NCBI GenBank assembly: GCA_017624645.1
Contig: JAGAMQ010000103.1
Coordinates: 1-23,609, forward strand
Length of the DNA: 23,609 nt
Source: Oscillospiraceae bacterium
GTDB taxonomy: Bacteria > Bacillota > Clostridia > Oscillospirales > Oscillospiraceae
Reading direction: 5' to 3'
Shown piece after piece: positions 1,418 to 16,146 of this stretch. A program made the translations under genes and the position numbers. How positions within the stretch are numbered: the first letter of the stretch is position 1; the number at the start of each line of letters is the position of its first letter. The notes below the pieces were generated by a model. That model did no database searches. It saw only the letters and a program-made list of their open reading frames with translations, and had not been told where the DNA came from.

Positions 1418-1475
1418 AATTTTTACCTCCATATAATTTAGCGGCCCCTTGCCGCAAATTAAGATCTCATTACAA

Positions 1476-1504
1476 GATATACCAAAAATTTCTACCAAAG
1501 TCAA
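1476..1504 (-). promoter_or_regulatory. Sigma-A type promoter of gdhA
   Basis: On the minus strand, TTGACT (1504-1499) is followed after exactly 17 bases by TATATC (1481-1476). Transcription would start about 50 bases before the ATG at 1417, leaving a short leader with a small GCGGC/GCCGC hairpin (1441-1455) ahead of the ribosome binding site. Confidence 0.65.
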
Positions 1505-1510
1505 GAGATA

Positions 1511-1552
1511 GCCGAAGATTTCTTGCAAGATTTCCTGCAAGAAATCTTCGGC
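1511..1552. repeat. Perfect 17-bp inverted repeat upstream of gdhA promoter
   Basis: Arms 1511-1527 and 1536-1552 are perfect reverse complements separated by an 8-base loop. The right-hand side on the minus strand ends seven bases before the -35 box of gdhA (1504). It could be a regulator-binding site, a backup terminator for the gene upstream, or a small intergenic repeat. It has no T-run on either strand. Confidence 0.8.
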
Positions 1553-1669
1553 ATGGTCAAGCCTATTCTCTCTGTACCGGAAAAATGCCTCTCATAGGCA
1601 GGTGCAGGTTTTTGGGACCCAATTCCCGGGGCAATCGGAGTACAAAAAAGAGGCGATGACACGGCCCCA

Positions 1670-1703
1670 AAACAAAGCCCCGGCGGGATCATACCCCGCC
1701 GGG
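1670..1703 (-). terminator. Terminator of the ceramidase-like gene
   Basis: A 9-bp perfect GC stem (1679-1687 with 1695-1703, 7-base loop) begins 8 bases past the stop codon at 1712. On the minus strand it is followed by GCTTTGTTTTGG, an imperfect T-rich tract. This fits an intrinsic terminator. Confidence 0.75.
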
Positions 1704-1711
1704 CAAAGAGT

Positions 1712-3022
1712 TTATGTAAGCTGCCGGATCATGTCCAAAAGATTATCTGCGATGCCCTCGGCGCTGCCCTCGGCAAAGATATGGGTATCCACCTCATAGC
1801 AGCCATAGCTGAAGGCATGGTGATTGGGGAAATAGCCCTCGGCACCGTTACAGTAGGCCAGCATCCATGTGGTCTTGCAGGGGGAGTTGTCCACAAACTG
1901 GGCACCTGCGGTATCAAACAGCTCACAGGGGGCTGTACCGAAAGCCAGCTCGCCCAGCACTGCTACGGACAGCTCCAGAGGAACTGTCTCCGGCGCTGCG
2001 GCACGCTGCAGCACCGCACGGCAGGCATAACCGGAATTGTAGCCATGCTCCCTGGCAATGGGCCATACCAGCTTGGTGTCGCCGGTTTCCAGGAACATGT
2101 CCCAGATCTTCTTGGCTTCCTCTACCTTGGAATCGGTGGTGTGGTCGATGGGACACTGGTAGATCCTGCGCATCAGCTTCAGATCGCCTACCTGCACAGG
2201 CTCCAGTCTGGGCAGCAGCTCCAGCACTGCCTTGGAAAGAATCTTGGCGTACTGGTTACGGGTGTACCTGATCTTGGGCTTTGCAACGTGGGAGGTGGGA
2301 GTGATATTGCCGCCGGCACCCTGGAAGAAGGCGAACAGGCAGTCGGTTTCCACTTCAAGGCAGGTGCGCAAAGCACCGATGTAGTCGGCAGAAATGCCGG
2401 TGGTTTTTCCGCCGCCCATCATGTCCGGGTGGCAGGGCCAGTTCATCATCAGGATATCCTGTCCCTCTTCCCGGCAGAAGCGCAGCAGCCGCAGCCGACC
2501 GTCGGCATCTGCCATGTGGCGTACAGGAGGATTGCTTGCCAGAGTACCGACACCCACAGTGCCGTCCTGGCGCAGGTAATGACGGACAAAGTTCAGATTC
2601 TCGGTCTGGCTGACGCCCCCAAGGACGGTTGCCTCCTTCCGGTCTGCCAGTGCGGCGTAGGCTGCCTCCGGGATCCGCTTGTTGGCATAAGCCATATACT
2701 CATTCACCCGACGGGGACCGGGATTGCCGATGTCCGGACCGGTGTGGGTGTGGGTACATGCCACCAAAATATTTTCTTCGGGGATGCCGGTCTCGGCGGT
2801 GATATACTCACGGATGGGACCAAACATATAGGGCTGGGAGTGGAGAAGATCCATGGTAATGAGCAAAAGGGTATTGTCCTGCTCGTCGGTAATGGCCACA
2901 CAGGTAGCAAACAGAGGATCGATCACATGGGTGGAAACTCTGTGGGGGCCGTTTCCGTAGCCGCCCAGCTCTATGTGCTCCTGGGGCATAATGTCAATGC
3001 GTCCAAATCCAACTTTCAGCAT
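1712..3022 (-). CDS. Neutral/alkaline ceramidase-like hydrolase
   Basis: A 436-aa protein resembling the N-terminal catalytic domain of neutral/alkaline ceramidases (zinc amidases that cut the N-acyl bond of ceramides). Visible family-type motifs are HTHTGPD (91-97), NWPCHPDMMGG (194-204), GAGGNITP (235-242) and NGAEGYFPN followed by GCYE (392-410). Histidines in the first two would be the zinc ligands. There is no signal peptide or lipobox, and the C-terminal domain of secreted ceramidases is missing, so it is probably cytosolic. Many such short forms have unknown substrates. The start at 3022 is preceded by GGAGGC. The open frame extends 27 codons further upstream, but across the likely promoter. 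It appears to be transcribed alone. Hydrolase fold is fairly sure; ceramide as substrate is not. Confidence 0.8.
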   Translation of the reverse strand: MLKVGFGRIDIMPQEHIELGGYGNGPHRVSTHVIDPLFATCVAITDEQDNTLLLITMDLLHSQPYMFGPIREYITAETGIPEENILVACTHTHTGPDIGNPGPRRVNEYMAYANKRIPEAAYAALADRKEATVLGGVSQTENLNFVRHYLRQDGTVGVGTLASNPPVRHMADADGRLRLLRFCREEGQDILMMNWPCHPDMMGGGKTTGISADYIGALRTCLEVETDCLFAFFQGAGGNITPTSHVAKPKIRYTRNQYAKILSKAVLELLPRLEPVQVGDLKLMRRIYQCPIDHTTDSKVEEAKKIWDMFLETGDTKLVWPIAREHGYNSGYACRAVLQRAAAPETVPLELSVAVLGELAFGTAPCELFDTAGAQFVDNSPCKTTWMLAYCNGAEGYFPNHHAFSYGCYEVDTHIFAEGSAEGIADNLLDMIRQLT

Positions 3023-3052
3023 AAAGATGCCTCCTTTATTTTCTGTGCTTTT

Positions 3053-3082
3053 ATCATAGCAACTCCTTCCATGGATTACCAA
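3053..3082 (-). promoter_or_regulatory. Probable promoter of the ceramidase-like gene
   Basis: Minus-strand TTGGTA (3082-3077), 18-base spacer, TATGAT (3058-3053). This places the start point about 25 bases before the ATG at 3022. The -35 box is imperfect. Confidence 0.45.
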
Positions 3083-3111
3083 CGATATACGCCGCGATTC
3101 CAACGATTTTG

Positions 3112-4482
3112 TTAGTTTTCAAATTCCCACAGCACTTCCCGGATGATCTCACTGACCGTAGGATGGGGAAAGATGATCTGCCGGGCGTCAGTGACCCTAA
3201 GCTGCATTTCCAGCATTTCCGCAGCGCCCCAGATGATTTCTCCGGCATAGGCACCGATGATATGCACACCCAGAACGGTGCGGCGCTTTTTGTCCACAAG
3301 GATCTTGCAAAGACCGTCGGCACCCTCATTTTCTGCCACGAACCGTCCGGAGTACCGCATGGAAAGGCTGCGCACTTCATAGTCGATGCCCTTTTCCCTG
3401 CACTCTTCCTCAGTTTTGCCCACGGAGGCGATCTCCGGCTGAGTGTAGATCACCGACGGATTGGCGTAATAGCGCATGGTATCGGTCTTGCCCAGAATGT
3501 GGTTCACAGCCACCTCTGCTTCCCGGTAGGCGGTATGGGCAAGCATATACTTGCCGTTGACATCGCCCACGGCGTATACATTTTCTATATTGGTGCGGCA
3601 CATGGCATCCACGGTGATGCCCCGGCGGTCAAAGCTGACCCCGATGGTTTCCAATCCGATGTTTTCCGTATTGGCCCGTCGGCCGATGGAAAGCAGCACC
3701 TTGTCCGCTTCCACACACAGCTTCTGTCCCTGGGGGTTCTCCGCCCAGACCTTTCCCGGTGCTACACCCAAGCACTTATGCTCCAAAAGGAAGGAAATGC
3801 CCTTTTTCTCCATGTCCTTTTGCAGGAGGGAGCCGATCTGCCGGTCTGTAGCACCGGCAATGTGGGGAAGCATTTCAATGACGGTGACCTTAGCACCGGC
3901 GGTGGCGTAATATGCCGCCATTTCCAGACCGATCACACCGCCGCCGATGACGGTAAGCTTCTGGGGAACTTGGGTCAGATCCAGCACCTCCCGGTTGGTC
4001 AGCACGAAGTCTCCCAGATTCTCCCGGACACCTTCAATGGGCGGCACCACCGGGGAAGAACCGGTGGCGATGATCAGCCGTTTTCCGGTATAGACAGTCC
4101 CTGCTGCCTCCAAAGTAAAGCCGTCGGCAGTCTTGCCGGTGATCTTTGCTTCTTCCATGACCACCTGGGCACCTACAGCCTTAAGCTTTGCCCGGATGCC
4201 GCTGACCAGTGTACGGACCACTTGATCCTTACGTTTTATTACAGCCTGCTGATCCAGCGTCACCTGAGATGTGCTGACCCCGTACACGCTGGCGTGAAGG
4301 GCGTGTTCATAATGCTTTGCGGAATTGAGCAGGGTCTTGGAGGGGATACAGCCCTCGTTAAGGCAGACACCTCCCAGTGCCCGCTTTTCCAGCACCAGAG
4401 TCTTCAGTCCTGCGTGGGCAGCCCGCTCCGCTGCCAGATAGCCGCCGGGTCCGCCGCCCAGCACGATGAGATCATAAATCAT
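3112..4482 (-). CDS. lpdA: Dihydrolipoamide dehydrogenase (E3)
   Basis: FAD-dependent pyridine nucleotide-disulfide oxidoreductase that reoxidises dihydrolipoamide with NAD+ in 2-oxoacid dehydrogenase or glycine-cleavage complexes. The 456-aa length is that of a standard E3 without an N-terminal lipoyl domain. It shows the FAD-binding GGGPGGYLAA (9-18), the redox-active disulfide GGVCLNEGCIPSK (C40 and C45), the NAD-binding VIGGGVIGLE, the second FAD motif YAVGDVNG, and the C-terminal catalytic pair in FPHPTVSE (H440, E445). The start is set by CCTCCT (4490-4495), read as AGGAGG on the minus strand, seven bases ahead. It lies downstream of trxB on the same strand but is separated from it by a 143-base gap filled with inverted repeats, so co-transcription is uncertain. 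No E1, E2 or gcv genes are nearby, so its partner complex is unknown. Confidence 0.95.
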   Translation of the reverse strand: MIYDLIVLGGGPGGYLAAERAAHAGLKTLVLEKRALGGVCLNEGCIPSKTLLNSAKHYEHALHASVYGVSTSQVTLDQQAVIKRKDQVVRTLVSGIRAKLKAVGAQVVMEEAKITGKTADGFTLEAAGTVYTGKRLIIATGSSPVVPPIEGVRENLGDFVLTNREVLDLTQVPQKLTVIGGGVIGLEMAAYYATAGAKVTVIEMLPHIAGATDRQIGSLLQKDMEKKGISFLLEHKCLGVAPGKVWAENPQGQKLCVEADKVLLSIGRRANTENIGLETIGVSFDRRGITVDAMCRTNIENVYAVGDVNGKYMLAHTAYREAEVAVNHILGKTDTMRYYANPSVIYTQPEIASVGKTEEECREKGIDYEVRSLSMRYSGRFVAENEGADGLCKILVDKKRRTVLGVHIIGAYAGEIIWGAAEMLEMQLRVTDARQIIFPHPTVSEIIREVLWEFEN

Positions 4483-4518
4483 ACGATATCCTCCTAATTG
4501 CTATAAGAGAAATGTTGA

Positions 4519-4536
4519 AACCCTCATAAAAGGGTT
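4519..4536 (-). repeat. Short hairpin overlapping the large inverted repeat
   Basis: AACCCT (4519-4524) and AGGGTT (4531-4536) form a 6-bp stem with a 6-base loop. The right half shares 4535-4536 with the left arm of the 27-bp inverted repeat, so the two structures compete slightly. It lies in the leader just before lpdA. Confidence 0.5.
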
Positions 4537-4614
4537 GTAGGGGAGGGTCTTGACCCTCCCGCGGGAAACATAAAGGCTTGCAGCTTTCGGGAGGGTCAAG
4601 ACCCTCCCCTACAA
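4535..4614. repeat. Composite 27-bp perfect inverted repeat between trxB and lpdA
   Basis: Arms 4535-4561 and 4588-4614 are perfect reverse complements around a 26-base centre. Each arm is itself a palindrome, GGGAGGGTC-TT-GACCCTCCC, so the RNA or DNA could fold as two small hairpins or as one long one. Size and symmetry resemble dispersed REP- or MITE-like intergenic repeats. No second copy is in this window. Confidence 0.85.
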
Positions 4615-4625
4615 GGCGTATGTTT

Positions 4626-5549
4626 TTACGGAAGATAGTGCTCTGCCTGATAGGCTGCCACCGCGCCGTCTGCCACTGCGGTAACGATCTGCCGCAGCTC
4701 CTTGCTGCGGATGTCTCCCACGGCATATACCCCGGGGAGGTTGGTTTTTGTGGTCTCGTCTGCCAGAATATAGCCCGCGTTGTCCAGTGTAAGCGCTCCT
4801 TGCACCAAGGCGTTGGCAGGATCTCTGCCGATGCTCACGAACAGTCCGTCCAGAGAAAGCTCCTCTTCCTGCCCCGTGGGCAGATACTTCAGGGTGACCC
4901 CTGTAAGCCGCTCATTGCTGTGCAGCCGGGTCACGGCACGTTCCCAAAGAATTTCCACATTTTCAAGGCGTTCCAGCTGCCTGCGGTACACCTGGGTGGC
5001 CCGGAGGGTGTCCCGGCGGTGGATCAGGTAGACCTTTTTGGCAATGCGGCTTAAAAACAGTACCTCCGCCACGGCAGAATTTCCGCCGCCCACCACAGCT
5101 ACCGTCCTGCCCCGGAAAAACATTCCGTCACAGTGACCGCAGTAGCTGACCCCTTTGCCCACAAGCTGCGCCTCCTGGGGAATTCCCAAGGGCCTTGGGT
5201 TGGCACCGGTGGCGATCACCACGGTCCGGGCCAAAAGGGTCTGTGTCTGGGTGGTCACTTCCTTGATGGGGGTGTCAAGCTGCAGTGCCGTTACCTGGGC
5301 ACTCACGGTTTCAGCACCGAAGCGCTCTGCACCTGCTTTCATGTCCTGTCCCAGGGTAAAACCGTCCACGCCTCCCGGAAAGCCGGGATAGTTATCGATC
5401 TGATGGGTCAGTGCCATCTGTCCGCCGGCAGAAAGCTTCTCCACCACCAGCGTGGAAAGACCCGCCCTGGCGGCATACAGAGCCGCAGTATAACCGCCGG
5501 GACCGCCGCCCACGATTATCATATCATAAATCTTGTTGTTTTTGATCAT
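4626..5549 (-). CDS. trxB: Thioredoxin-disulfide reductase
   Basis: A 307-aa FAD and NADPH flavoenzyme that keeps thioredoxin reduced. Domain order is FAD-binding GGGPGGYTAALYAARAG (14-30), then the NADPH domain carrying the active-site cysteines YCGHCDG (C137, C140), GGGNSAVAEVLFL (154-166) and HRRDTLRA (177-184, arginines typical for NADPH), and finally YAVGDI (275-280) for FAD. The disulfide is CGHC, where most bacterial TrxB have CAxC. The start at 5549 follows GGAAGGGG at spacing 10; an internal ATG at codon 10 would cut into the FAD motif and is less likely. The gene is divergent from a Crp/Fnr-type regulator, and a promoter is visible between them. Confidence 0.93.
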   Translation of the reverse strand: MIKNNKIYDMIIVGGGPGGYTAALYAARAGLSTLVVEKLSAGGQMALTHQIDNYPGFPGGVDGFTLGQDMKAGAERFGAETVSAQVTALQLDTPIKEVTTQTQTLLARTVVIATGANPRPLGIPQEAQLVGKGVSYCGHCDGMFFRGRTVAVVGGGNSAVAEVLFLSRIAKKVYLIHRRDTLRATQVYRRQLERLENVEILWERAVTRLHSNERLTGVTLKYLPTGQEEELSLDGLFVSIGRDPANALVQGALTLDNAGYILADETTKTNLPGVYAVGDIRSKELRQIVTAVADGAVAAYQAEHYLP

Positions 5550-5576
5550 AATATTGCGCCCCTTCCTTTTTATTTT

Positions 5577-5582
5577 AGTATA
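5577..5582 (-). promoter_or_regulatory. Candidate -10 box of trxB
   Basis: TATACT on the minus strand (5582-5577) gives a start about 20 bases before the trxB ATG. No good -35 box stands 17 bases upstream (CGGAAG), while TCAC/GTGA dyads cover that area. This is the pattern of an activator-dependent promoter. Confidence 0.45.
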
Positions 5583-5594
5583 GCCAAAAAATGA

Positions 5595-5617
5595 TCACAC
5601 TTCCGTGACAATATCAC
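5595..5617. promoter_or_regulatory. TCAC/GTGA dyad cluster, possible Crp/Fnr-family operator
   Basis: Three half-sites are interleaved: TCAC (5595-5598), GTGA (5605-5608) and TCAC (5614-5617). The second pair, GTGA-N5-TCAC, is close to the GTGA-N6-TCAC pattern bound by many Crp-family proteins. The cluster lies just upstream of the -35 box of the regulator gene and over the -35 region of trxB. Confidence 0.4.
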
Positions 5618-5620
5618 CGA

Positions 5621-5649
5621 TTGACAAGCTGCGGGGAAATCGGTATACT
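5621..5649 (+). promoter_or_regulatory. Sigma-A promoter of the Crp/Fnr-type gene
   Basis: TTGACA (5621-5626), 17-base spacer, TATACT (5644-5649). The -35 is perfect and the -10 matches five of six. Transcription would start about 12 bases before the ATG at 5669, giving a very short leader. Confidence 0.8.
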
Positions 5650-5668
5650 GGTTTCCGGAGGGATAGCT

Positions 5669-6325
5669 ATGGATTTTTCGGATTTTTTCCCTTTTTGGCA
5701 TAAGCTTACAGCCGCCCAGCAGGAAAAACTGACAGAGGTCACCCATCCCCTGGAGGCAAAGGCAGGAACATTGCTCCATGACGGCAGCGGCGAGTGCATG
5801 GGACTGATGCTGGTGCAGACCGGACAGCTCCGGGTCTACACTCTGTCTTCCGAAGGACGGGAGATCACCCTGTACCGGCTGTTTGATCAGGATATCTGCC
5901 TGTTTTCTGCCTCCTGTGTGATGCCGGATGTGCAGTTTTCCGTGATGGTAGAGGCAGAAAAGGATTGCAGGATCTTGGTTGTCCCCTCCTGCCTGTTCAA
6001 AAATCTCATGGAGGATTCCGCGCCGGTGGCAAACTATATAAACCAGCTGATCTCAGGGCGCTTTTCCGAGGTGATGTGGCTCATGGAGCAGATCATGTGG
6101 AAGAGCTTTGACAAACGCCTTGCGGCATTTTTGCTGGAGGAAAGCCGTCTGGAGAACAGCCCGGTTCTGAAGATCACCCACGAAAGGATCGCCAACCACA
6201 TGGGTACTGCCCGGGAGGTGGTGACCCGGATGCTGCGCTACTTCCAGTCAGAGGGTATGGTACGCCTGACCCGTGGCGCTATAGAGCTCACAGACGAAAA
6301 CGCCTTACAGGCTTTGGAAGAATAA
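5669..6325 (+). CDS. Crp/Fnr-family transcriptional regulator
   Basis: A 218-aa DNA-binding regulator. Residues 15-115 look like a cyclic-nucleotide-binding-type beta barrel, followed by a long dimer helix (about 118-150). A winged helix-turn-helix lies at 168-205, with ITHERIANHMGTAREVVTRML matching the Crp/Fnr recognition-helix pattern. The barrel has scattered cysteines (43, 77, 83, 100, 108) but no N-terminal Fnr-type cysteine cluster, so the signal it senses is unclear. The start at 5669 is set by GGAGGG eight bases ahead. The frame is open 16 codons further back, but that stretch contains the promoter. It is divergent from trxB, which suggests it may control thiol-redox genes, and it is followed after 26 bases by the dCMP deaminase gene, probably in one transcript. 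Confidence 0.9.
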   Translation: MDFSDFFPFWHKLTAAQQEKLTEVTHPLEAKAGTLLHDGSGECMGLMLVQTGQLRVYTLSSEGREITLYRLFDQDICLFSASCVMPDVQFSVMVEAEKDCRILVVPSCLFKNLMEDSAPVANYINQLISGRFSEVMWLMEQIMWKSFDKRLAAFLLEESRLENSPVLKITHERIANHMGTAREVVTRMLRYFQSEGMVRLTRGAIELTDENALQALEE

Positions 6326-6351
6326 TAAAAACATCTTGGAGGATATCTATT

Positions 6352-6843
6352 ATGAAGCGTACAGACTACATCAGCTGGGATGAATATTTTATGGGCGTTG
6401 CCATGCTGGCGGCCTGCCGCAGCAAGGATCCCAGCACTCAGGTAGGTGCCTGCATCGTATCCCAGGACAACATCATTATTTCCACCGGCTACAACGGCAT
6501 GCCCAAGGGCTGCTCTGACGATGCGTTTCCGTGGGACAGAGAGGGCAAAGAGACCAAGTACCCCTATGTTGTCCATGCAGAGCTGAACGCCATTCTCAAC
6601 GCCAATGGCAGAGATCTTCGGGGGAGCAAGCTGTATGTGGCACTGTTCCCCTGCAACGAGTGCGCCAAGGCCATCATCCAGAGCGGCGTGAAGGAGATTT
6701 TCTATCTATCCGACAAGTATGCAAACACCCCCGGCACCCTTGCTTCCAAGCGGATGCTGGACGCTGCCGGCGTAAAATACACCCAGCTGCGCACGGGTAT
6801 CCGCTCCCTGACCCTGGACTTTACCCCGGCAGAGGAGAAATAA
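6352..6843 (+). CDS. comEB: Deoxycytidylate (dCMP) deaminase
   Basis: A 163-aa zinc enzyme that converts dCMP to dUMP, feeding dTMP synthesis. The zinc and catalytic motifs are HAELNAIL (75-82, H75 ligand and E77 proton shuttle) and PCNECAK (100-106, C101 and C104 ligands). The N-terminal half SKDPSTQVGACIV (24-36) and GYNGMPKGC (46-54) are typical of ComEB-type dCMP deaminases. GGAGG stands 10 bases ahead of the ATG. It appears to be the second gene of a two-gene transcript with the Crp-type regulator. No other nucleotide genes are adjacent. The family call is firm; allosteric control by dCTP/dTTP is not addressed by the sequence. Confidence 0.92.
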   Translation: MKRTDYISWDEYFMGVAMLAACRSKDPSTQVGACIVSQDNIIISTGYNGMPKGCSDDAFPWDREGKETKYPYVVHAELNAILNANGRDLRGSKLYVALFPCNECAKAIIQSGVKEIFYLSDKYANTPGTLASKRMLDAAGVKYTQLRTGIRSLTLDFTPAEEK

Positions 6844-6900
6844 AAGTATGGACAGGAAGCCACGGGTGATCCAATGACCCCGGGGCTACGGTACAAACAA

Positions 6901-6930
6901 GACCTCCGGGCGATTTGCCCGGAGGTCTTT
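6901..6930. terminator. Bidirectional terminator between dCMP deaminase and the NADAR-like gene
   Basis: A perfect 11-bp stem (6901-6911 with 6917-6927, loop GATTT) serves two converging transcripts. It is followed on plus by TTTAAAAA and on minus by TTGTTTGT. The stem begins right at the stop codon of the minus-strand gene (6929). Confidence 0.8.
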
Positions 6931-7816
6931 AAAAAGGCATGTCAAAGGGTTCTCCGTAGACATCCTCCGAAATTTCCTCCTGAACGCCCAGACACAGAAC
7001 CATATTGTCATATATCCGATTCAGCTGGCTGCGTACCTGCATCAGGGCTTTGCCATACAGGTTTTCACCCCGGAACGCGCCCTCTTTGAAAACACCCCCC
7101 AGCAGGGGATTGGTTTCGTCCACATAAACCAGCGGTTGGTCGCCGGTTTCCTGAAGCCGTATGCGCAGGTAATTGTTTTGGGAGAATTTCCGGTAAAGTC
7201 CCACGCCCAGCAGATGGGTCAGTACTTCCATCCAATCGGGAGTACGGCAGTTTAATGCCTTGTGCAAGGTGTCCTGCCACAGCTCGCTGTCCGGTCCTTC
7301 CTCCAGCAGCTGTAGGTAGTGCCACCGATTGCCCCGATACAGAACATAGCCCATGATCAGCAGGTGTTCTGCGGAGTAAAGCTCCGTATTGTAAGGATTT
7401 TCCCTGTGCATACGTACAGCAAAGCTTTCCCAGTTGACAGGGGACAGTCCCTCCTCCTTATCTCCTGCAAGGATCTTAAGGCATGCTTCCTCCGGAAAGT
7501 CCTCCCAAGGGGGACACTCCGGCTCCCACCGGCGCAGCCGCAGCAGCCTTTTTTCTATATATGCTTCCGGGTCTGCTTCCGATTCCTCTTTGGGCATCCA
7601 GTCATCCCAGTCAAAGGGCAGGGGGAACAGCTTGCGATACAAAAATTGGTCATGGAGAGTCCGGGCATCCAGAAATCTTTTGAGTTTGTTGGCAAGCATC
7701 CTGGGTCCCATGGTGTGCCATTCCTGGGAATCCTGTTCCAGCTCCGGCTTGTAGCACCACAGGGGCATGGGAAGCTCGTATTTCTTCATGAACTCAAAAA
7801 TGGAACGTTTCTTCAT
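6929..7816 (-). CDS. Divergent NADAR-like (YbiA/DUF1768-type) domain protein
   Basis: A 295-aa protein with no close family that I recognise over its first 120 residues, which are rich in W, E and R. Residues about 125-265 show the pattern of the NADAR/YbiA fold in the right order: YSAEHLLIMG (147-156) like the YbiA TSEH segment, KFSQNNYLRIRLQETGD (210-226) like KF-Q-LR-LL-T, LVYVDETNPLLGG (229-241), and GENLYGKALMQVR (250-262) like GKNxLGxLLMxxR. NADAR enzymes break N-glycosidic bonds of riboflavin intermediates or remove ADP-ribose from nucleobases. The usual WG at the active site is replaced by LLGG, so activity may differ or be lost. It is the last gene of the TIR-PP2C operon, 10 bases after the phosphatase, with GAGGG before its ATG. 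The fold call rests on motif order only. Confidence 0.55.
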   Translation of the reverse strand: MKKRSIFEFMKKYELPMPLWCYKPELEQDSQEWHTMGPRMLANKLKRFLDARTLHDQFLYRKLFPLPFDWDDWMPKEESEADPEAYIEKRLLRLRRWEPECPPWEDFPEEACLKILAGDKEEGLSPVNWESFAVRMHRENPYNTELYSAEHLLIMGYVLYRGNRWHYLQLLEEGPDSELWQDTLHKALNCRTPDWMEVLTHLLGVGLYRKFSQNNYLRIRLQETGDQPLVYVDETNPLLGGVFKEGAFRGENLYGKALMQVRSQLNRIYDNMVLCLGVQEEISEDVYGEPFDMPF

Positions 7817-7826
7817 ACCTGTACCC

Positions 7827-8660
7827 TCACTTTATTTCCAGCAACGCCGCGCAGGCATCGTCATGGGTATGGAACCGGGGATACCGGTTGCAGTTTCTGT
7901 CCGCTTCCTCCATCCGGCGGAGCTTCTGGCACAGCACCGACAAAGGCTCTGCGGGGATCTGACGGAGAAAATCCTCCGCCATCCAGTCAAAGCCGTCGCT
8001 GAAGAGAAGCACATGGGATACCCCTTCCTTGGGCAGGCTCCATTTGCGCAGATGCTGCAGCGCCTCTTTGGAAAAGGCGAGGATCCAGTACCCCTCCGGG
8101 GTGTTCATTTTGCTGCGGTTTTCTGCCAGCATGGTCCGGATCTTTTCCGTTTGGACGGTGGCAAGGATGTCCATGCCTGTGTGGGCCGCCATTTCCTCCA
8201 TGGCGGCAAGAACCCTGCCGTCAAAGGCATCTACCCGGTTGTCCCGAAAGCGTTCCGGGGGCCGTCCATCCCGGTAGTAGACAACAAAAGAGCAGTCCCC
8301 CAAAGCAAAAAGCTCCAGCTGATCCCCCTTTTCCTCCAAAAGGAGCAGGGAAGCGGAGGGGGTCAGATTGGTGGTCCGGGGGTCGATCCCGGTATTTTTC
8401 AGGCACACCTCTGCCGCCCGATCTATTGCCGCGGCAAGGCGCGGCTGTGTGTCTGTATCCGGTTCCTCCATGAAAAATGCCTTGGAGAATTCCTCCACAA
8501 ACCAGCTGGCATCGGGCATGTTGCTGTAAAGTCCCAGATTGGTGGAGCCATCCAGCAGCATGGCCTGCCGCGACGTATGCCGGAATAAATCCTCGTTCCG
8601 GGGTTTGGATGCACTGGTGGCGTGATCCTTTAATACAATGCTCACGGTTACACCCCCCAT
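7827..8660 (-). CDS. PP2C-type serine/threonine phosphatase domain protein
   Basis: A 277-aa single-domain protein with the metal-binding motifs of PP2C phosphatases in order: NED (22-24), DGSTNLG (37-43, in place of DGxGG), TPSASLLLLE (100-109), ALGDCS (119-124), LLFSDGFDWM (218-227) and HDDACAALL (266-274). The aspartates in DGST, SDG and HDD would hold the Mn/Mg pair. No signal peptide or membrane segment is present. The ATG at 8660 overlaps the end of the TIR gene by 13 bases and has AGGGG eight bases ahead. A GTG at 8645, with GGGGGG ahead, is an alternative start just past the TIR stop. Either way it is translationally coupled to the TIR gene. Substrate unknown; no kinase is encoded nearby, so its role in the operon may be regulation of the TIR or NADAR-like partner. 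Confidence 0.8.
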   Translation of the reverse strand: MGGVTVSIVLKDHATSASKPRNEDLFRHTSRQAMLLDGSTNLGLYSNMPDASWFVEEFSKAFFMEEPDTDTQPRLAAAIDRAAEVCLKNTGIDPRTTNLTPSASLLLLEEKGDQLELFALGDCSFVVYYRDGRPPERFRDNRVDAFDGRVLAAMEEMAAHTGMDILATVQTEKIRTMLAENRSKMNTPEGYWILAFSKEALQHLRKWSLPKEGVSHVLLFSDGFDWMAEDFLRQIPAEPLSVLCQKLRRMEEADRNCNRYPRFHTHDDACAALLEIK

Positions 8661-9829
8661 GTGGTCAGCCCCTGGCAGATGGCCTGGGCCAATGCCTCCG
8701 GGGAAGGATAGTCTTTCAGGAAAATCTTATGATGGCCGTCCAGCTGCAGCTGCATACCCGGGGACAGCTTCACATCGTCAAGGTGCACCGCAATGATGGG
8801 TTTCTCCTGATTCAAAGCATATTTCAGCTCCCGGCGTACAAAGGCAGAATCTACAGAGCTGCCCGACAGGAACAGGATCACGGCGTTGCAGCCAAGGATC
8901 CGCTCCGCCAGCTCCTCCCAAAAGTCCCCTCCGGGGGTCAGCTTCCGGTCAAACCAAATGTTCTTGTCCAATTCGGTGAGGGCCTGCGCCATCTGTGTCA
9001 CAAGCTCCTTGTCACTATGGGCATAGCTGACAAAGGCGTATGCCTTTTCCTGGGAGAAGGGCAGATCCTTGATCTCCCGGGGAACACCGTGGATGCCCTG
9101 TGAGGTAGCCGATGTAAGGCGCTGTTCCAGCAGGTACACCTGCTGGTGCATCTGTATGTACATCTGATAATACTGATAACCGCTGATCCGCAGGGCATAG
9201 TCCTTCCGGGAGGCATCTTCTTCGGTGATGGCCCGCTTCACAAGATGGACTGCCTCGGCATACTGGTGCTTCAGCATCACGATCCGGGCTTTGGTGCAGT
9301 AATATTTGGCGTACTTGGGGTCCAGTTCGATGGCTTTATTTACCGCATCTAGGGCCTTGGCGTACCACTTGTCGATAAATTCCTGCCGCTCCACCGGCTC
9401 GCACTTTTCGCAAATACTGGCAAAGGTATCGGCAAAGGCATGGACATATCCTGCATTGGTTCCCAGAGCAAGAGAGTTGGCGTGGGACTGGGCCAGCAGG
9501 TCGTTGTAGTCGTAGATGGAATCGCTTTCAATGAGAAACAGCACCCGCAGATGGCCAATGGAGGGGTGGCTGGCAAACCGGCCCTCATACTGATCCAGCA
9601 GCTGGCTCATTTGGGAGAAATTCTTATTCCTGCGCTGGATGATGCAAAGGGTATAAAATGCCCCGTATGCCACATTTTCCTGCTTGCTGTCCAGCAGTGC
9701 CATCATCTGGCGGATGCTCTCCGGGTCGCAGTACTGCCCGGCAAAATCTGTGGTGGCCAGCTCAAACTCCCGGGTCCGCTCCGAGGGCAGGCCGGCAAAA
9801 AATTTTATGAATTGTTTCTGTTTATTCAT
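8648..9829 (-). CDS. TIR-domain protein with N-terminal helical/TPR-like region
   Basis: A 393-aa soluble protein. Residues 1-240 are helical and repeat-like, with a recognisable TPR-type pair around 155-200 (ALDAVNKAIELDPKYAKYY onward). Residues about 262-388 form a TIR domain: YAFVSYAHSDKELV (264-277), IWFDRKLTPGGDFWEEL (291-307), VILFLSGSSVDSAFVRREL (317-335) and PIIAVHLDD (344-352). Glutamates 305 and 306 sit where NAD-cleaving TIR domains carry their catalytic glutamate, so NADase or cyclic-ADP-ribose synthesis is possible. There is no membrane segment. The start follows AGGAG seven bases ahead. It is the first gene of a TIR, PP2C, NADAR-like operon with a promoter at 9937-9965. A role in defence or in internal signalling both fit; this is inference from domains. 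Confidence 0.85.
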   Translation of the reverse strand: MNKQKQFIKFFAGLPSERTREFELATTDFAGQYCDPESIRQMMALLDSKQENVAYGAFYTLCIIQRRNKNFSQMSQLLDQYEGRFASHPSIGHLRVLFLIESDSIYDYNDLLAQSHANSLALGTNAGYVHAFADTFASICEKCEPVERQEFIDKWYAKALDAVNKAIELDPKYAKYYCTKARIVMLKHQYAEAVHLVKRAITEEDASRKDYALRISGYQYYQMYIQMHQQVYLLEQRLTSATSQGIHGVPREIKDLPFSQEKAYAFVSYAHSDKELVTQMAQALTELDKNIWFDRKLTPGGDFWEELAERILGCNAVILFLSGSSVDSAFVRRELKYALNQEKPIIAVHLDDVKLSPGMQLQLDGHHKIFLKDYPSPEALAQAICQGLTTWGV

Positions 9830-9878
9830 AGTCCGCTCCTACAGCCCTGTCCTGCAGAGCCAAAAGGGTTGTCCTCTG

Positions 9879-9907
9879 CCCCGGTGCCGGTCCCACCGTC
9901 ACCGGGG
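9879..9907 (-). promoter_or_regulatory. Strong hairpin in the leader of the TIR operon
   Basis: CCCCGGTG (9879-9886) pairs with CACCGGGG (9900-9907), and an inner CGGT/ACCG stem (9888-9891 with 9895-9898) closes a 3-base loop. It lies between the promoter and the ribosome binding site. No T-run follows on the minus strand directly, so it is not a plain terminator. It may stabilise the mRNA, act as an attenuator part, or bind a protein. Confidence 0.6.
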
Positions 9908-9936
9908 TAGTATATCCCCTGTCTTTTTATGGGAAT

Positions 9937-9965
9937 ACTATAACACAGTTTTTATCCCCGCGCAA
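9937..9965 (-). promoter_or_regulatory. Promoter of the TIR-PP2C-NADAR operon
   Basis: Minus-strand TTGCGC (9965-9960), 17-base spacer, TATAGT (9942-9937) preceded by TGT, an extended -10 motif. The transcript would start near 9930, leaving a leader of about 100 bases before the TIR start codon. Confidence 0.65.
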
Positions 9966-11455: not shown

Positions 11456-13042
11456 GTGACGGAAGAATATGCCATCCAATTATCCGGGATCACCAAGGCC
11501 TTTGGCAGTGTGGTGGCCAACAAAAACATCGATCTGAATGTCCGCCAGGGCGAGATCCTTGCCTTGCTGGGGGAAAACGGCTCCGGCAAGACCACCCTCA
11601 TGAACATGCTTTCCGGTATCTATCAGCCGGACAGCGGAACCATCCGGGTAAACGGTAAGGAGGTCTCCATTCATTCCCCTGAGGATGCCAAGAGGCTGGG
11701 GATCGGCATGGTCCATCAGCATTTCAAGCTGGTGGATGTGTTCTCTGCCGCGGACAATGTGTGGATGGGCAGAGAAAAAGCGGGCTTCCGGCTGAAGCGC
11801 AACCGCTACGCCGAGATGGAAGCCATTGCAAAGAAGTTCGGCTTTGATATCGACCCCCGGAAAAAGGTGTGTAACATGGCGGTGTCGGAAAAGCAGACCC
11901 TTGAGATCATCAAGGTCCTTTCCTACGGTGCCAAGATCATTATTTTGGACGAGCCCACCGCCGTGTTGACAGTGCAGGAGATCCAGAAGCTTTTCACCGT
12001 CCTGCGGAAAATGAAGGATGAGGGTCACTCCATCATCATCATCACCCATAAGCTGGGTGAGGTGATGGAGATTTCCGACCGGGTAGCCATCCTGCGCAAG
12101 GGCGAATACATCACCACCGTCAACACCGCCGAGACCGATGAGCAGGCACTGACAGAGTGGATGGTGGGCAGGAAAGTGGATCTGAACATTGACCGGCCCG
12201 CAATGGAAAAGACAAAGCCTCTGCTGGAGCTGCGGGATGTGTGCATCCGCAGTGACGAGGGAACCACCGCCATTGACGGTGTCAGCTTTTACATCCGGGG
12301 CGGCGAGATTTTGGGCGTGGCAGGTATTGCCGGCTGCGGTCAGAAGGAGCTGTGCGAGGCCATTGCCGGACTGCGCCCCATTGAAAAGGGTCAGATGATC
12401 CATAAGGGCGACAACATTGTGGGACTTCCCCCCAGGGTCATTTTGGAAAAGGGCATTTCCATGTCCTTCATCCCTGAGGACCGGCTGGGCATGGGTCTTG
12501 CCCCCTCTTTGTCCATTACGGACAATATGCTGCTGAAAAACTATGCCGATGCCAAAGGCCCCTTTGTGGACCGGAAGCAGGGCCGTGCCGATGCCCAGCA
12601 GGTGATCCGGGAGCTGGAGGTGGTCACACCCTCCACGGAGACCCCGGTGCGCCGTCTTTCCGGCGGCAATGTGCAGAAGGTGCTGCTGGGAAGAGAGATC
12701 AAGGCAGGTCCCAATGTGCTGGTCACCGCCTACCCCGTCCGGGGACTGGACATCCACTCCTCCTACGCCATTTATGACATCCTCAACCGGCAGAAAAAGG
12801 ACGGTGTGGGTATCCTCTTCGTAGGCGAGGATCTGGATGTGATGATGGCCCTGTGCGACAAGATCCTTGTGCTGTGCCACGGCAAGGTCATGGGCGTGGT
12901 CCATGCCCACAAGACCACCAAGGAGGAGCTGGGTCTGATGATGACCGGCTCTTTGGATCTTACCAACAAATATGAAGACAAGCCTGCCGGTATCGCCAAG
13001 GATTCCCTCTTCGGTGACGGACAACAGAAAGTGGAGGGGTGA
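11456..13042 (+). CDS. ABC transporter double ATPase, nucleoside/sugar type
   Basis: A 528-aa cytoplasmic protein with two fused nucleotide-binding domains that powers the importer. The first half has Walker A GENGSGKT (39-46), Q-loop region GMVHQHFKLV (84-93), Walker B with catalytic glutamate ILDEPTAVL (163-171) and the switch histidine ITHKLGEV (196-203). The second half has a degenerate P-loop IAGCGQKEL (291-299), the signature LSGGNVQKVLLGREI (401-415) and VTAYPVRGLDI (423-433), where tyrosine stands in place of the catalytic glutamate. This asymmetry is usual for the family. Translation starts at GTG 11456, set by AAAGGAGG ahead; no nearby ATG fits. It ends within six bases of the first permease start, so the genes are translationally coupled. 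Confidence 0.92.
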   Translation: MTEEYAIQLSGITKAFGSVVANKNIDLNVRQGEILALLGENGSGKTTLMNMLSGIYQPDSGTIRVNGKEVSIHSPEDAKRLGIGMVHQHFKLVDVFSAADNVWMGREKAGFRLKRNRYAEMEAIAKKFGFDIDPRKKVCNMAVSEKQTLEIIKVLSYGAKIIILDEPTAVLTVQEIQKLFTVLRKMKDEGHSIIIITHKLGEVMEISDRVAILRKGEYITTVNTAETDEQALTEWMVGRKVDLNIDRPAMEKTKPLLELRDVCIRSDEGTTAIDGVSFYIRGGEILGVAGIAGCGQKELCEAIAGLRPIEKGQMIHKGDNIVGLPPRVILEKGISMSFIPEDRLGMGLAPSLSITDNMLLKNYADAKGPFVDRKQGRADAQQVIRELEVVTPSTETPVRRLSGGNVQKVLLGREIKAGPNVLVTAYPVRGLDIHSSYAIYDILNRQKKDGVGILFVGEDLDVMMALCDKILVLCHGKVMGVVHAHKTTKEELGLMMTGSLDLTNKYEDKPAGIAKDSLFGDGQQKVEG

Positions 13043-13044
13043 TG

Positions 13045-14163
13045 ATGGGTATGCATATCGTAAAGCGGGAAAATCTTCCCCTGTGGCAAAAGGTGTGCCT
13101 GTATGTGGGCGCGGTGGCGGCGGCTCTTTTGCTGGGCGCAGTGCTGCTCCTTGCCATCGGCGTGGATCCCATTGCCTATTACAACAGGATGTTCACCCTT
13201 GGAACGGTGGGAAACCCCATCGCCTATAAGGTCTACGCCAACTACTTGGCAGACCTTGTGCCGTTGGTGCTGACTTCCTTGGCACTGTCCCTTGCCTTTA
13301 AAATGAAATTCTGGAACATCGGCGGCGAAGGCCAGTTCATCATGGGTGCCCTTGCCACTGCGGTAGTGGCCATCAAGCTGGGCGGGGTACTGCCCACGGC
13401 TGTGGTGCTGATCCTTATGTGCCTTGCTGCCATGGTGGCTGCGGGTATCTACGGGCTGATCGTTGCAGCGTTGAAGGTGAAATTCGGCACCAACGAGACC
13501 CTTTTGACCCTGATGCTCAACTATGTGGCGCTGTATCTTCTGACCTACCTGATGGAGACCAAGGTTCCCTGGAACTTTTTGCTGGATCCCACGGCAGTAC
13601 GTCCGGTGCCCCAAAGCTTTGACAAGATGGTCAAATTCCCCTCCATTCCCTTGGTGGGTAAGTTCTCTTTGAATGTTTGTGTGATTTTCGTGGTGCTCAT
13701 CGGTCTTCTAATCCATGTGTACCTGCGCCGCACCAAGCAGGGCTACGAGATCAGCGTGGTGGGTGACAGTGCCGGTACTGCCCGGTACGCCGGTATGAAG
13801 GTTGGACCCATCGTGCTGCGTACCGTGTTCCTGTCTGCCTGTCTTATCGGTCTGGCTGCTGCTTTCAAGGTTGGCTCCACCGGTATCCTGTCCACCACTA
13901 TTACCGAGGATGTGGGTTGGACGGGCATCATCGTGGCATGGCTGGCACAGCTGAATACCTGGGCGATCTTCCTGGTTTCGGCATTGGTCTGTGTGCTGCA
14001 CTATGGCTCTACTGTGGCGGCTGCCACCTTTGCACAGGTGGATTCCAGCTTTGCCAATATGCTCCAGGGTGTGATTTTGTTCCTTGTCCTGGCGGCGGAT
14101 TTCTTCACCCGGTTCCGGGTGGTCATGGTAAAGAAAGGAGGTTCTGACCATGGAAATGGATAA
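13045..14163 (+). CDS. ABC transporter permease 1 (BMP/nucleoside importer)
   Basis: An integral membrane protein of about 372 aa with roughly eight to ten hydrophobic segments. It belongs to the branched-chain amino acid/ribose-type permease group: GGEGQFIMGALATAVVAI after the second helix, KFGTNETLLTLMLNYVALYLL, and GYEISVVGDSAGTARYAGM, the cytoplasmic loop that docks the ATPase. Several starts cluster at 13039 (GTG), 13042 (ATG) and 13045 (ATG). I chose 13045 because GGAGG (13033-13037) is then seven bases ahead. It overlaps the next permease by 14 bases. It probably forms the channel as a heterodimer with permease 2. Confidence 0.9.
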   Translation: MGMHIVKRENLPLWQKVCLYVGAVAAALLLGAVLLLAIGVDPIAYYNRMFTLGTVGNPIAYKVYANYLADLVPLVLTSLALSLAFKMKFWNIGGEGQFIMGALATAVVAIKLGGVLPTAVVLILMCLAAMVAAGIYGLIVAALKVKFGTNETLLTLMLNYVALYLLTYLMETKVPWNFLLDPTAVRPVPQSFDKMVKFPSIPLVGKFSLNVCVIFVVLIGLLIHVYLRRTKQGYEISVVGDSAGTARYAGMKVGPIVLRTVFLSACLIGLAAAFKVGSTGILSTTITEDVGWTGIIVAWLAQLNTWAIFLVSALVCVLHYGSTVAAATFAQVDSSFANMLQGVILFLVLAADFFTRFRVVMVKKGGSDHGNG

Positions 14164-15148
14164 GCTCTCAGTGGTTACCTCCTTCCTGCACAACATCGTG
14201 GTCTATAACATCCCTCTGCTCTACGGTACCGCCGGGGAGATCCTTGTGGAAAAGTCCGGCAGTCTGAATCTGGGTGTGGAGGGTATCATGGCGGTAGGCG
14301 CCATCTTCGGTTACATCTGCGGCTGCTATGCCAACAGCTTGCTGGTGGGTATCGCCGTGGCGTTCCTAGCTGGCGCACTGTGCGGACTGCTGTTTTCCGT
14401 GCTTACCGTTACCCTGCAGGCCAATCAGAACATTACCGGTCTGACCCTCACCACCTTCGGCTTGGGTGTCTACTTCTTCGTGGGTAACGGTCTCAAAGCC
14501 TCCGGCTGGCCGGTGATGGGCAACTTCTCCAACATTATGGCAGGCTTTTCCAACGTCGCCATTCCCGGTCTTTCCAAGATCCCCCTGCTGGGCCATGGCT
14601 TGTTTAACCATAATGTCCTTGTGTATCTGGGAATTGCCATTGCCGTGGCAATGTGGTGGTATCTGAATAAGACGACCCCCGGCCTGCGGCTGCGGGCTGT
14701 GGGTGAGAATCCTGCTGCGGCGGACTCTGTGGGCATCAATGTCACATGGACCAAGTACCTGCACATTTGCATCGGCTGCGGTATCATGGGCATCGGCGGC
14801 TATTATATGGGCCTGAACATGTCCGGCTCCTTCAACTCCAACTGCTGGATCAACGGCTACGGCTGGATCGCCGTGGCACTGGTGATCTTTGCCAACTGGA
14901 ATCCTGCCATGGCGATTCTGGGAACCTTTGTGTTTGGCTTCTTTAACACCCTCCGGGTTTCCGGAAGCTCCTTGGCAGCCGCGTTTCCCAGTGTGCTGGG
15001 CTTCCTTGGGGATATCCCCACCCAGCTGTACCAAGCGCTTCCCTTTATCATTACCGCCATCGTTCTGGTGGTTACCTCCATCCGCAGCCGGAAGAGCAGC
15101 GGACTGCCTGCCGCTTTGGGCATCAACTACTTCCGGGAAGAACGATAA
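14150..15148 (+). CDS. ABC transporter permease 2 (BMP/nucleoside importer)
   Basis: A 332-aa membrane protein, partner of the preceding permease. Family features: GTAGEILVEKSGSLNLGVEGIM near the N-terminus, QANQNITGLTLTTFG, TTPGLRLRAVGENPAAADSVGINV (ATPase-docking loop) and CWINGYGWIAVALVIFANWNP in the C-terminal half, with about eight hydrophobic segments. AAAGGAGG precedes the ATG at 14150, which lies inside the end of the first permease gene. It is the last gene of the four-gene operon, closed by the terminator at 15180-15209. The binding protein, double ATPase and two permeases make a complete importer; nucleosides are the most likely cargo by family resemblance. Confidence 0.92.
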   Translation: MEMDKLSVVTSFLHNIVVYNIPLLYGTAGEILVEKSGSLNLGVEGIMAVGAIFGYICGCYANSLLVGIAVAFLAGALCGLLFSVLTVTLQANQNITGLTLTTFGLGVYFFVGNGLKASGWPVMGNFSNIMAGFSNVAIPGLSKIPLLGHGLFNHNVLVYLGIAIAVAMWWYLNKTTPGLRLRAVGENPAAADSVGINVTWTKYLHICIGCGIMGIGGYYMGLNMSGSFNSNCWINGYGWIAVALVIFANWNPAMAILGTFVFGFFNTLRVSGSSLAAAFPSVLGFLGDIPTQLYQALPFIITAIVLVVTSIRSRKSSGLPAALGINYFREER

Positions 15149-15179
15149 ATAGGGATCTTAACTGATGCGACCCAAAAGA

Positions 15180-15209
15180 CGCTGTCCCCGGGAGGGACAG
15201 CGCCTTTTT
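15180..15209. terminator. Bidirectional terminator between ABC operon and DtxR-type gene
   Basis: A 9-bp stem (15180-15188 with 15194-15202, 5-base loop) is followed on plus by CCTTTTTG and on minus by TCTTTTGG. The stop codon of the minus-strand regulator (15211) lies two bases beyond, so both converging units use it. Confidence 0.85.
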
Positions 15210-15210
15210 G

Positions 15211-15582
15211 TTACGGTCTCCAGTTGTTCATAAATTTCTTGATCGCCCCAAAGGATTCGTCACTGATGGCGTGCTCCAGACGGCAGGCATCCTCAGCCGC
15301 GGTTTCCGGAGATACCCCCAGCGCTTCCAGCATCCTGGAAAGGAGGGTGTGCCGCTCATAGATCTTCTGGGCCACTTCCAGCCCTGCCGGGGTCAGGGCA
15401 ATGTAGCCATCGGCATCCACCAGGATATAGCCCCCTTTTTTCAGCAGTCCCACCGCCCGGCTGACACTGGGCTTGCTGTAGCCCATATGCTCGCTGATGT
15501 CGATGGAGCGGACCGTGCCGTTTTTCTTCAGAAGAACATGGATAGTCTCCAGATACATTTCTCCGGATTCATGGATGCCCAT
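15211..15582 (-). CDS. DtxR-family metal-dependent regulator, short form
   Basis: A 123-aa metal-responsive repressor-type protein. The winged helix-turn-helix is at about 22-60 (SIDISEHMGYSKPSVSRAVGLL) and the dimerisation/metal-binding helices at 65-115. The primary metal site residues are M9, C100, E103 and H104, the M-C-E-H set of DtxR/IdeR, where manganese-sensing MntR has D-E-E-H. The second-site residues are only partly kept (H78 present, alanine at the DtxR H98 position). The C-terminal SH3-like domain is absent, as in MntR-sized proteins. Iron is therefore a reasonable guess as the ligand. It is a single-gene unit with a promoter at 15612-15640. Candidate targets nearby include the ZIP transporter. 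Family call firm; metal and targets are inferred. Confidence 0.9.
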   Translation of the reverse strand: MGIHESGEMYLETIHVLLKKNGTVRSIDISEHMGYSKPSVSRAVGLLKKGGYILVDADGYIALTPAGLEVAQKIYERHTLLSRMLEALGVSPETAAEDACRLEHAISDESFGAIKKFMNNWRP

Positions 15583-15611
15583 AGTACTCGGCTCCTTTGG
15601 AAGTTTTCCTC

Positions 15612-15640
15612 ATTATACCATGCAGAATCCCCAAAAGCAA
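15612..15640 (-). promoter_or_regulatory. Promoter of the DtxR-type gene
   Basis: Minus-strand TTGCTT (15640-15635), 17-base spacer, TATAAT (15617-15612), a perfect -10 preceded by TGG. It gives a leader of about 20 bases before the ATG at 15582. Confidence 0.7.
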
Positions 15641-15647
15641 GTATGTA

Positions 15648-15669
15648 CCGCACTGCATAGGCAGTGCGG
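15648..15669 (-). terminator. Terminator of the spore protein gene
   Basis: A perfect 9-bp stem (15648-15656 with 15661-15669, loop ATAG) is located 11 bases past the stop codon. On the minus strand it is followed by TACATACTTGCTTTTGG, a loose T-rich tract. It abuts the -35 box of the downstream DtxR-type gene. Confidence 0.7.
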
Positions 15670-15680
15670 CTGGGGTGCAA

Positions 15681-15881
15681 TTACTGCATGCCCTGCTCGT
15701 AAGCCTCGATCATCTTCTTGACCATCTGGCCGCCCACGGAGCCGGCCTCACGGGAGGTCAGGTGACCGTTGTAACCGTTGGTCAGGTTAACGCCCACTTC
15801 CTGTGCAGCCTGCATCTTGAAGCGGTCCATAGCCTCCCGAGCCTGGGGAATGTTGATCTGGTTGTTATTCTTGTTGCTCAT
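15681..15881 (-). CDS. Small acid-soluble spore protein, alpha/beta type
   Basis: A 66-aa protein that coats and protects DNA in the dormant spore. It has the family's N-terminal helix with the region cut by the GPR protease on germination (QAAQEVG, 24-30) and the conserved C-terminal half (NGHLTSREAGSVGGQMVKKM). It is the clearest sign that the organism forms endospores. GGAGAG precedes the ATG. Expression should be in the forespore under SigF/SigG, but I could not place a convincing SigG promoter upstream. Confidence 0.95.
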   Translation of the reverse strand: MSNKNNNQINIPQAREAMDRFKMQAAQEVGVNLTNGYNGHLTSREAGSVGGQMVKKMIEAYEQGMQ

Positions 15882-15922
15882 TTTCGTTCTCTCCTTTTTA
15901 TGGGCATACTTTTGAGGTATAC

Positions 15923-15958
15923 CTTTCTTCCGGAAAGATCAACACTTTCCGGAGAAAG
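15923..15958. repeat. Imperfect 14-bp hairpin between spore protein and ZIP genes
   Basis: 15923-15937 and 15945-15958 are reverse complements apart from one bulged base, with a 7-base loop. Each arm contains the palindromic core TCCGGA. On plus it is followed by CATTTTTC, terminator-like, although no plus-strand gene ends here. A related TTTCCGGAAA palindrome recurs at 16015-16024, and GCATTTTTC (15958-15966) pairs with GAAAAATGC (16021-16029). Confidence 0.65.
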
Positions 15959-16082
15959 CATTTTTCTTTCCGCAACCATAGCTTTGCCACATCTGGGCGA
16001 AATATAAATGTTTCTTTCCGGAAAAATGCGAAAAAACTGGAAAGGACAGAGACAGAATCCGGCAAAAAAGCTTTTGGATGGG

Positions 16083-16111
16083 TTGTTATTCCCGTGAGAA
16101 TATGGTATGAT
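16083..16111 (+). promoter_or_regulatory. Promoter of the ZIP transporter gene
   Basis: TTGTTA (16083-16088), 17-base spacer, TATGAT (16106-16111) preceded by TGG (extended -10). The start point would be near 16118. Confidence 0.7.
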
Positions 16112-16115
16112 ACCA
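16103..16115. promoter_or_regulatory. Candidate operator over the ZIP -10 box
   Basis: TGGTATGATACCA is a perfect 13-base palindrome with a one-base centre, and it covers the whole -10 box. A repressor bound here would block the promoter. The DtxR-type protein encoded 0.5 kb away is one candidate binder, but the sequence is not a recognised DtxR or MntR box. Confidence 0.45.
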
Positions 16116-16146
16116 AAAAATCGACAAAAAGAAACGGAGGGCCGGA

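Follow-up and report, generated by a model that had tools for sequence, protein, structure and literature searches.

A 23,609-nucleotide contig of an Oscillospiraceae bacterium (JAGAMQ010000103.1, assembly GCA_017624645.1; this whole stretch is hereafter called the window) carries on its minus strand, at 6899-9965, closely spaced genes for a TIR-domain protein, a PP2C-type phosphatase and a NADAR-fold protein. Do these three genes form one conserved NAD/ADP-ribose signalling or defence system, as an initial annotation of the sequence had proposed, and how might it be controlled? We found that the conserved unit is a two-gene cassette, in which a protein composed of an N-terminal helical TPR-like domain (NTD) and an effector half is paired with a PP2C phosphatase, and that NADAR is a lineage-specific third gene. 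The features of the locus are:

9829-8648, minus strand: NTD-TIR protein gene, 393 aa, identified by Pfam
9101..9829, minus strand: NTD, residues 1-243, the portion common to the relatives
8708..9037, minus strand: TIR domain, residues about 265-374, with invariant E334 (codon 8830-8828)
7827..8660, minus strand: PP2C-type phosphatase gene, 277 aa, identified by Pfam, with an alternative GTG start at 8645
6929..7816, minus strand: NADAR-fold protein gene, 295 aa, identified by Pfam and structure comparison
9937..9965, minus strand: candidate promoter, TTGCGC (-35), 17-base spacer, TATAGT (-10)
6899..6929, minus strand: terminator-like hairpin with a 13-bp stem, a 5-base loop and a weak T tail

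Two of the three genes form a conserved cassette

A contig scan with the TIR-protein alignment retrieved 18 loci, and whole-genome searches added three, in G365 (L057), G908 (L072) and G702 (L078). L004, one of the 18, is broken by its contig end, which leaves 20 readable loci; L079, broken in the same way, is not in the count either. The pairs L017/L018, L006/L009 and L002/L008 consist of near-duplicate or closely related loci, each counted singly. At 19 of the 20 loci PP2C directly follows the NTD protein or is fused to it, and this pairing recurs in Clostridia, Erysipelotrichaceae, Haloplasmataceae and Bacteroidaceae. None of the 20 loci, which lie outside the clade of the window, has a NADAR gene in the stretch read, and we therefore reject the trio as a conserved unit. 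More than 1.9 kb downstream of the core was covered at 18 loci; at L013 and L018 only 208 and 305 bases were available, and with fewer than 310 bases after PP2C a third gene is possible there.

The NADAR gene was found only in the window and its close relatives. PP2C and NADAR are apparently adjacent on three metagenome contigs, a linkage deduced from proteins reported with equal longest-contig size (2919, 2885 and 3659); in the size-3659 case homologues of the TIR protein, PP2C and a fragment of NADAR share that size. The trio thus occurs in a small clade and is not confined to this strain. NADAR identity among the metagenome relatives goes down to 49%, which suggests that NADAR did not join the pair very recently. 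Six of 101 genus genomes matched the NADAR alignment, and among those examined the trio-type NADAR is present only in the window's own genome: G013, G427 and G433 have ordinary NADARs, the G015 fragment looks ordinary, and the G486 match is weak.

The Butyrivibrio locus L009 is collinear with the related L143 (G1241) over L009 positions 1-9709 (90%) and 12006-16923 (93%). The intervening 2,296 bases, comprising the NTD-TIR gene, the PP2C gene and about 250 bases upstream, correspond to 15 bases in L143. This implies that the pair was gained or lost as one block. For the window itself the search for an empty site allowed no conclusion, the neighbourhood of its dCMP deaminase gene being non-syntenic in 29 of 29 other genus loci.

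The effector half of the NTD protein is exchangeable

The effector half is swappable: depending on the lineage, it is a TIR domain or a C-terminal membrane segment. At L012-L018, L019, L072 and L078, and in protein P0047, the NTD is followed by C-terminal hydrophobic membrane-type segments instead of TIR, and hydropathy scans upheld this label in 11 of 11 cases. The NTD itself is C-terminal in P0045 and P0046, the latter with an N-terminal TIR match. Within the NTD, T179 in the sequence YAKYYCTK is invariant across 19 aligned NTDs. On a tree of 49 NTDs a single change accounts for the difference between TIR and membrane forms (support 88/77). Three are needed for TIR-PP2C fusion, forced by well-supported branches. 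Any of these changes may have been a gain or a loss, and long branches underlie several of the deep placements. A search of a viral structure library with the NTD gave no match at E <= 0.001, and in a fold search with the complete NTD-TIR protein the matches were taken up by the TIR domain.

The TIR and PP2C domains retain their candidate catalytic residues

The TIR protein matches PF13676 over residues 266-374 (E 7.8e-20) and also the ThsB-type profile PF08937 (E 4.3e-8). The underlying alignment (A1) comprised the window protein and 23 of 47 TIR matches; it left out the fusions P0031, P0039 and P0042, the forms P0045-P0047 with a C-terminal NTD or membrane segment, and the distant P0048-P0065, of which the fusions and P0045-P0047 were restored for the NTD tree. 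Residue E334 is invariant in all 24 aligned rows and aligns with the VHKE(L) glutamate of C. elegans TIR-1, which we take to be the catalytic residue, an E642A entry of SARM1 being among the fold-search matches. Both features looked for in a TIR NADase, the TIR fold and a glutamate in the alpha-C helix region, are present. The initial annotation had named candidate catalytic glutamates in this domain, and E334 upholds that proposal: the catalytic-glutamate position of the pocket is kept.

The window PP2C scored just below the curated cut-off of PF13672 (E 5.5e-5; 23.2 bits against 24), which its relatives P0015 and P0017 exceed. All 23 aligned rows share D24, D37, G121, D122, D222, G223, D267 and D268, and at least 90% of them keep N22, E23 and G38. 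The motifs NED, DG, GD, SDG and DD, presumably the metal site, are all present, in agreement with the earlier reading of the sequence. The PP2C partners split into two very distant clades, separated by a branch of 3.39 changes per column, which suggests that what is retained is a PP2C enzyme and not any single protein.

Two side observations concern other PP2C proteins. A 788-aa protein at L075 (7717-10083), in which one of the six window-type PP2Cs of 400 family genomes is fused to a different TIR, has an N-terminal TIR and a C-terminal PP2C domain without the NTD, a further TIR-PP2C link. At L111 (7013-7870) and L112 (6977-7849), relatives sharing a GGYW motif lie within sphingomonad clusters of amino-sugar and anhydro-MurNAc kinase genes, hinting that some PP2C relatives act in sugar-phosphate metabolism.

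The NADAR-like protein is altered at key positions

The third protein matches PF08719 above the cut-off (E 3.6e-12). Its NADAR fold, anticipated from motif order by the initial annotation, was confirmed by structure comparison, with a predicted model of low overall confidence. The NADAR core spans about residues 107-271, and the N-terminal ~105 residues gave no confident model. This conserved N-terminal part (window 7502-7816) carries the sequence KKYELPMPLW and a FLDxRTxHD-like motif.

For the E. coli C7 NADAR, the accessible part of PMC11543638 names E88, K95 and D171 for guanine-ADP-ribose hydrolysis and describes a glutamate at the E173 position as conserved across the NADAR superfamily. 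In the family of the window protein the K95 position is occupied by Tyr (6/8) or His (2/8) and the last-strand E173 position by Tyr (7/8) or Phe (1/8), while Glu is kept at the E88 position in six of the eight, with Trp and Leu in the other two. The fragment P0006 was excluded from the alignment used (A3), and so was P0001, the window protein itself. Glu, Lys and Glu are all retained in YbiA and in five ordinary NADARs of the same genus (three genomes), and the Glu-Lys spacing is consistent with the 8bau/YbiA alignment. As both the lysine and the last-strand glutamate are replaced in all eight proteins, standard NADAR hydrolysis is unlikely. Judged from its sequence, the protein is probably not a normal NADAR enzyme, and it probably binds an ADP-ribose-type molecule rather than hydrolysing it. 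An invariant aspartate two residues beyond the last-strand position (D233) could supply an altered activity. These substitutions weaken the earlier suggestion that this protein removes a product of the TIR domain; a link of the trio to NAD or ADP-ribose is plausible.

Transcription unit and genomic context of the window

The three genes are real, each having a Pfam match, and probably form a single operon. Starting from its ATG at 8660, PP2C shares 13 bases with the TIR gene; the alternative GTG at 8645, the start point of the relatives P0011, P0012 and P0014, would leave a 2-base gap. PP2C and NADAR are separated by 10 bases. Hence the short junctions described before stand, and the proposal of a closed unit holds insofar as a single transcription unit is likely. 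Its two borders are weaker, neither having been called by the consensus scan. The -35 element TTGCGC agrees with the consensus in three of six positions (by eye), and the promoter at 9937..9965 is only plausible. The hairpin at 6929-6899, where the NADAR and dCMP deaminase genes converge, has a folding energy of -27.5 kcal/mol (z -7.9 relative to shuffled sequences) but a weak T tail. A riboswitch was looked for, and no Rfam family reached its gathering score in the window. The GC content of the trio (0.526-0.574) is similar to that of the other measured genes (0.538-0.589) and does not clearly point to recent transfer; NADAR has the lowest values for both total and third-position GC.

Among the matches listed, the full-length TIR-protein family is present in two of 394 order-level genomes, the window's own included, and the other 43 order-level genomes with a match have the TIR region only, without the N-terminal part. 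Enrichment near defence genes, which had been suggested as a check, was not clear around the window or the related loci. No convincing defence partner was found among the 10 flanking window proteins scanned. The 105 neighbours of up to 1200 aa (longer ones were dropped) yielded eight PADLOC families, one with two members and the others with one, and several of these models also match the window's ordinary ABC transporter ATPase. The TIR neighbours identified lie around L002 and L008; at the Bacteroidaceae locus L008 (6131-14371) a row of TIR proteins (ThsB-like, TIR-WD40 and TIR-hexapeptide) surrounds a TIR-PP2C fusion.

The TIR and NADAR queries, the two that were run, found no relative in IMG/VR; phages gave no relative of the NADAR-like protein, and plasmids none of the TIR or NADAR-like protein. 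Distant PP2C relatives occur in 23 plasmid records, and the four inspected represent other contexts. Carriage by a phage was considered for MT836178.1 (L110), the only hit filed as a bacteriophage, and rejected: its TIR, PP2C and subtilase genes are nearly the same as in the bacterial G365 (by eye), and we treat this unverified contig as bacterial DNA in a virome.

A proposed phosphatase-controlled TIR system and its alternatives

A constant regulatory NTD with a phosphatase, joined to a variable growth-stopping domain, is the layout of a phosphatase-controlled abortive-infection device. We give about even chances to the reading that the locus belongs to a sporadic, block-moving cassette in which a TPR-like NTD with a swappable killing domain is served by a dedicated PP2C, forming an abortive-infection-type TIR system under phosphatase control. 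In the resting cell the phosphatase would keep the NTD, or a cell protein read by the NTD, dephosphorylated and the effector silent. Infection or another insult would disturb this balance and release the effector, and the released TIR domain would consume NAD+ or make an ADP-ribose product, whereupon growth would stop. In the lineage of the window the added NADAR-fold protein would bind an ADP-ribose-type molecule.

Several observations weigh against this interpretation. The system is rare, with the NTD in five of 391 class-level genomes; neighbours are mostly housekeeping genes, without a defence-island signal that stands out; and the operon encodes no kinase. The Parabacteroides locus L019 has the NTD and no PP2C. 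Conversely, two of the six window-type PP2C genes found in 400 family genomes lack the NTD (L073, L074), and some PP2C relatives belong to amino-sugar gene clusters. The split between TIR and membrane forms on the NTD tree is only moderately supported (88/77). Moreover, distances of NTD and PP2C correlate weakly, with a Mantel r of 0.12 over 24 pairs (p 0.036) and of 0.05 over the 21 non-redundant ones (p 0.28), where P0019/P0010 and P0023/P0015 were paired by equal contig size; this speaks against simple co-inheritance.

A possible but unlikely alternative is a second-messenger system, in which the TIR domain makes a signal of the cyclic ADP-ribose (cADPR) type, PP2C switches TIR, and the NADAR-like protein in the lineage of the window and a pair of RyR-domain and membrane proteins in other lineages act as receptors. 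It draws on four of the 20 loci, L006 and L009 (Butyrivibrio) and L002 and L008 (Bacteroidaceae), where the cassette adjoins a RyR-domain protein of ~100 aa that matches PF02026 at E 1e-35 or lower, together with a membrane protein 643-866 aa long. The latter has its own RyR match in two of the four and was of membrane type in all four when scanned. This neighbour matters because, according to the accessible part of PMC13232231, phage RyR-domain proteins act on cADPR isomers: RyDEP cleaves 2'/3'cADPR, and others sequester 2'cADPR and 3'cADPR. NADAR and RyR are both ADP-ribose-associated domains, and in each of the four genomes the cassette neighbour is the sole strong RyR gene; any RyR match was found in six of 16 genomes. 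Some RyR match occurs in 22 of 99 genomes akin to that of L006 and a strong small RyR gene in four, and the two genomes with the NTD are both among these four. All four RyR proteins beside the cassette have, by eye, the His-x-x-Trp known from the ligand site of RyDEP.

However, the RyR pair also occurs without the cassette, at L143 and, in similar form, at L145, where the stretch read has no NTD, PP2C or TIR match; it is therefore an independent module whose link to the cassette is suggestive only. The pair, located at L006 7651-9921, L009 7438-9708, L002 13271-15565, L008 14529-17430, L143 5533-7884 and L145 5393-8157, may be an ADP-ribose-linked membrane module of gut bacteria. Furthermore, the two Butyrivibrio loci are close kin, and the Bacteroidaceae loci contain other TIR genes. 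For H100 of RyDEP, which contacts phosphate, L002 and L008 have a possibly matching histidine (HHP, YHP) that L006 and L009 lack (TTP; by eye). A receptor is not obligatory, since NADAR and RyR are both missing from six of 10 TIR-type loci in the stretches read.

We consider it improbable that the locus is a toxin-antitoxin-like module, with NTD-TIR as the toxin, PP2C and the NADAR-like protein as neutralising binders, and defence as one outcome. The tight pair, with its overlapping or closely spaced genes and its gain or loss as a unit, would suit such a module, and NADARs serve as antitoxins of DarT1 (accessible part of PMC11543638). Yet the full retention of the PP2C motif residues (23/23) suggests catalysis beyond binding, an antitoxin whose loss sets off the toxin would not usually be fused to it, as PP2C is to TIR in some lineages, and the trio has no ADP-ribosyltransferase according to Pfam. 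Similarly improbable is an ordinary stress or envelope-signalling module unrelated to defence, in which phosphatase and TPR protein would monitor a cell process and TIR would trim NAD+: most loci lie in housekeeping neighbourhoods and the TIR and NADAR queries lack relatives in IMG/VR or plasmids, but patchy distribution, effector swapping and gain or loss as a block are typical of conflict systems.

Relation to known systems

In bacterial immunity, TIR is known to work with nucleotide signals, Argonaute, STING and CRISPR. No paper pairing TIR with PP2C in bacterial immunity was found in the literature searched, most subscription journals lying outside it, and the accessible part of PMC9503650, which deals with NADAR and TIR, does not mention PP2C. 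Within this literature the trio, as initially stated, is not a named system.

The cassette shares with Thoeris a TIR domain with NADase hallmarks in a small operon, and the ThsB-type TIR profile matches the window TIR. However, Thoeris has a ThsA effector, for which no PADLOC model matched in the trio and the 10 flanking window proteins, and the cassette instead has a PP2C partner and a TPR-like NTD. From the TIR NADases SpbK, AbTir, Cat1 and SPARTA it differs by the PP2C partner and the effector replaceable by a membrane segment. Like DarTG1, the window operon combines a NADAR-fold protein with a protein predicted to use NAD+. Unlike DarTG1, it has no DarT, no ADP-ribosyltransferase domain having been found in the 15 window proteins scanned with Pfam, and its NADAR core lacks the essential lysine and the last-strand acidic residue. 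The extra N-terminal ~105 residues and the replaced catalytic residues also distinguish the NADAR-like protein from YbiA, an N-glycosidase of riboflavin intermediates. Its match to the NADAR-family anti-phage protein DS32_2 (NCBIfam NF053876) is weak (E 4e-5), falling at 22.8 bits far under the cut-off of 240, and the window protein is longer.

Meaning for TIR immunity

A phosphatase as the constant partner of TIR would be a new control logic for TIR immunity. The empty site fixes the two-gene unit, and its recurrence across distant bacteria makes the pairing testable. With the NADAR-like protein it becomes possible to ask if ADP-ribose enzymes, once altered, act as receptors of TIR products. 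More speculatively, and with a low probability in our estimate, a dedicated PP2C gates interchangeable TIR or membrane effectors through the TPR-like domain as a so far undescribed immune switch, to which lineages add ADP-ribose readers beside the TIR version: the altered NADAR in the lineage of the window, and the RyR-linked membrane protein in Butyrivibrio and Bacteroidaceae. If true, this would be a bacterial parallel to the cADPR-ryanodine receptor axis under the control of a phosphatase.

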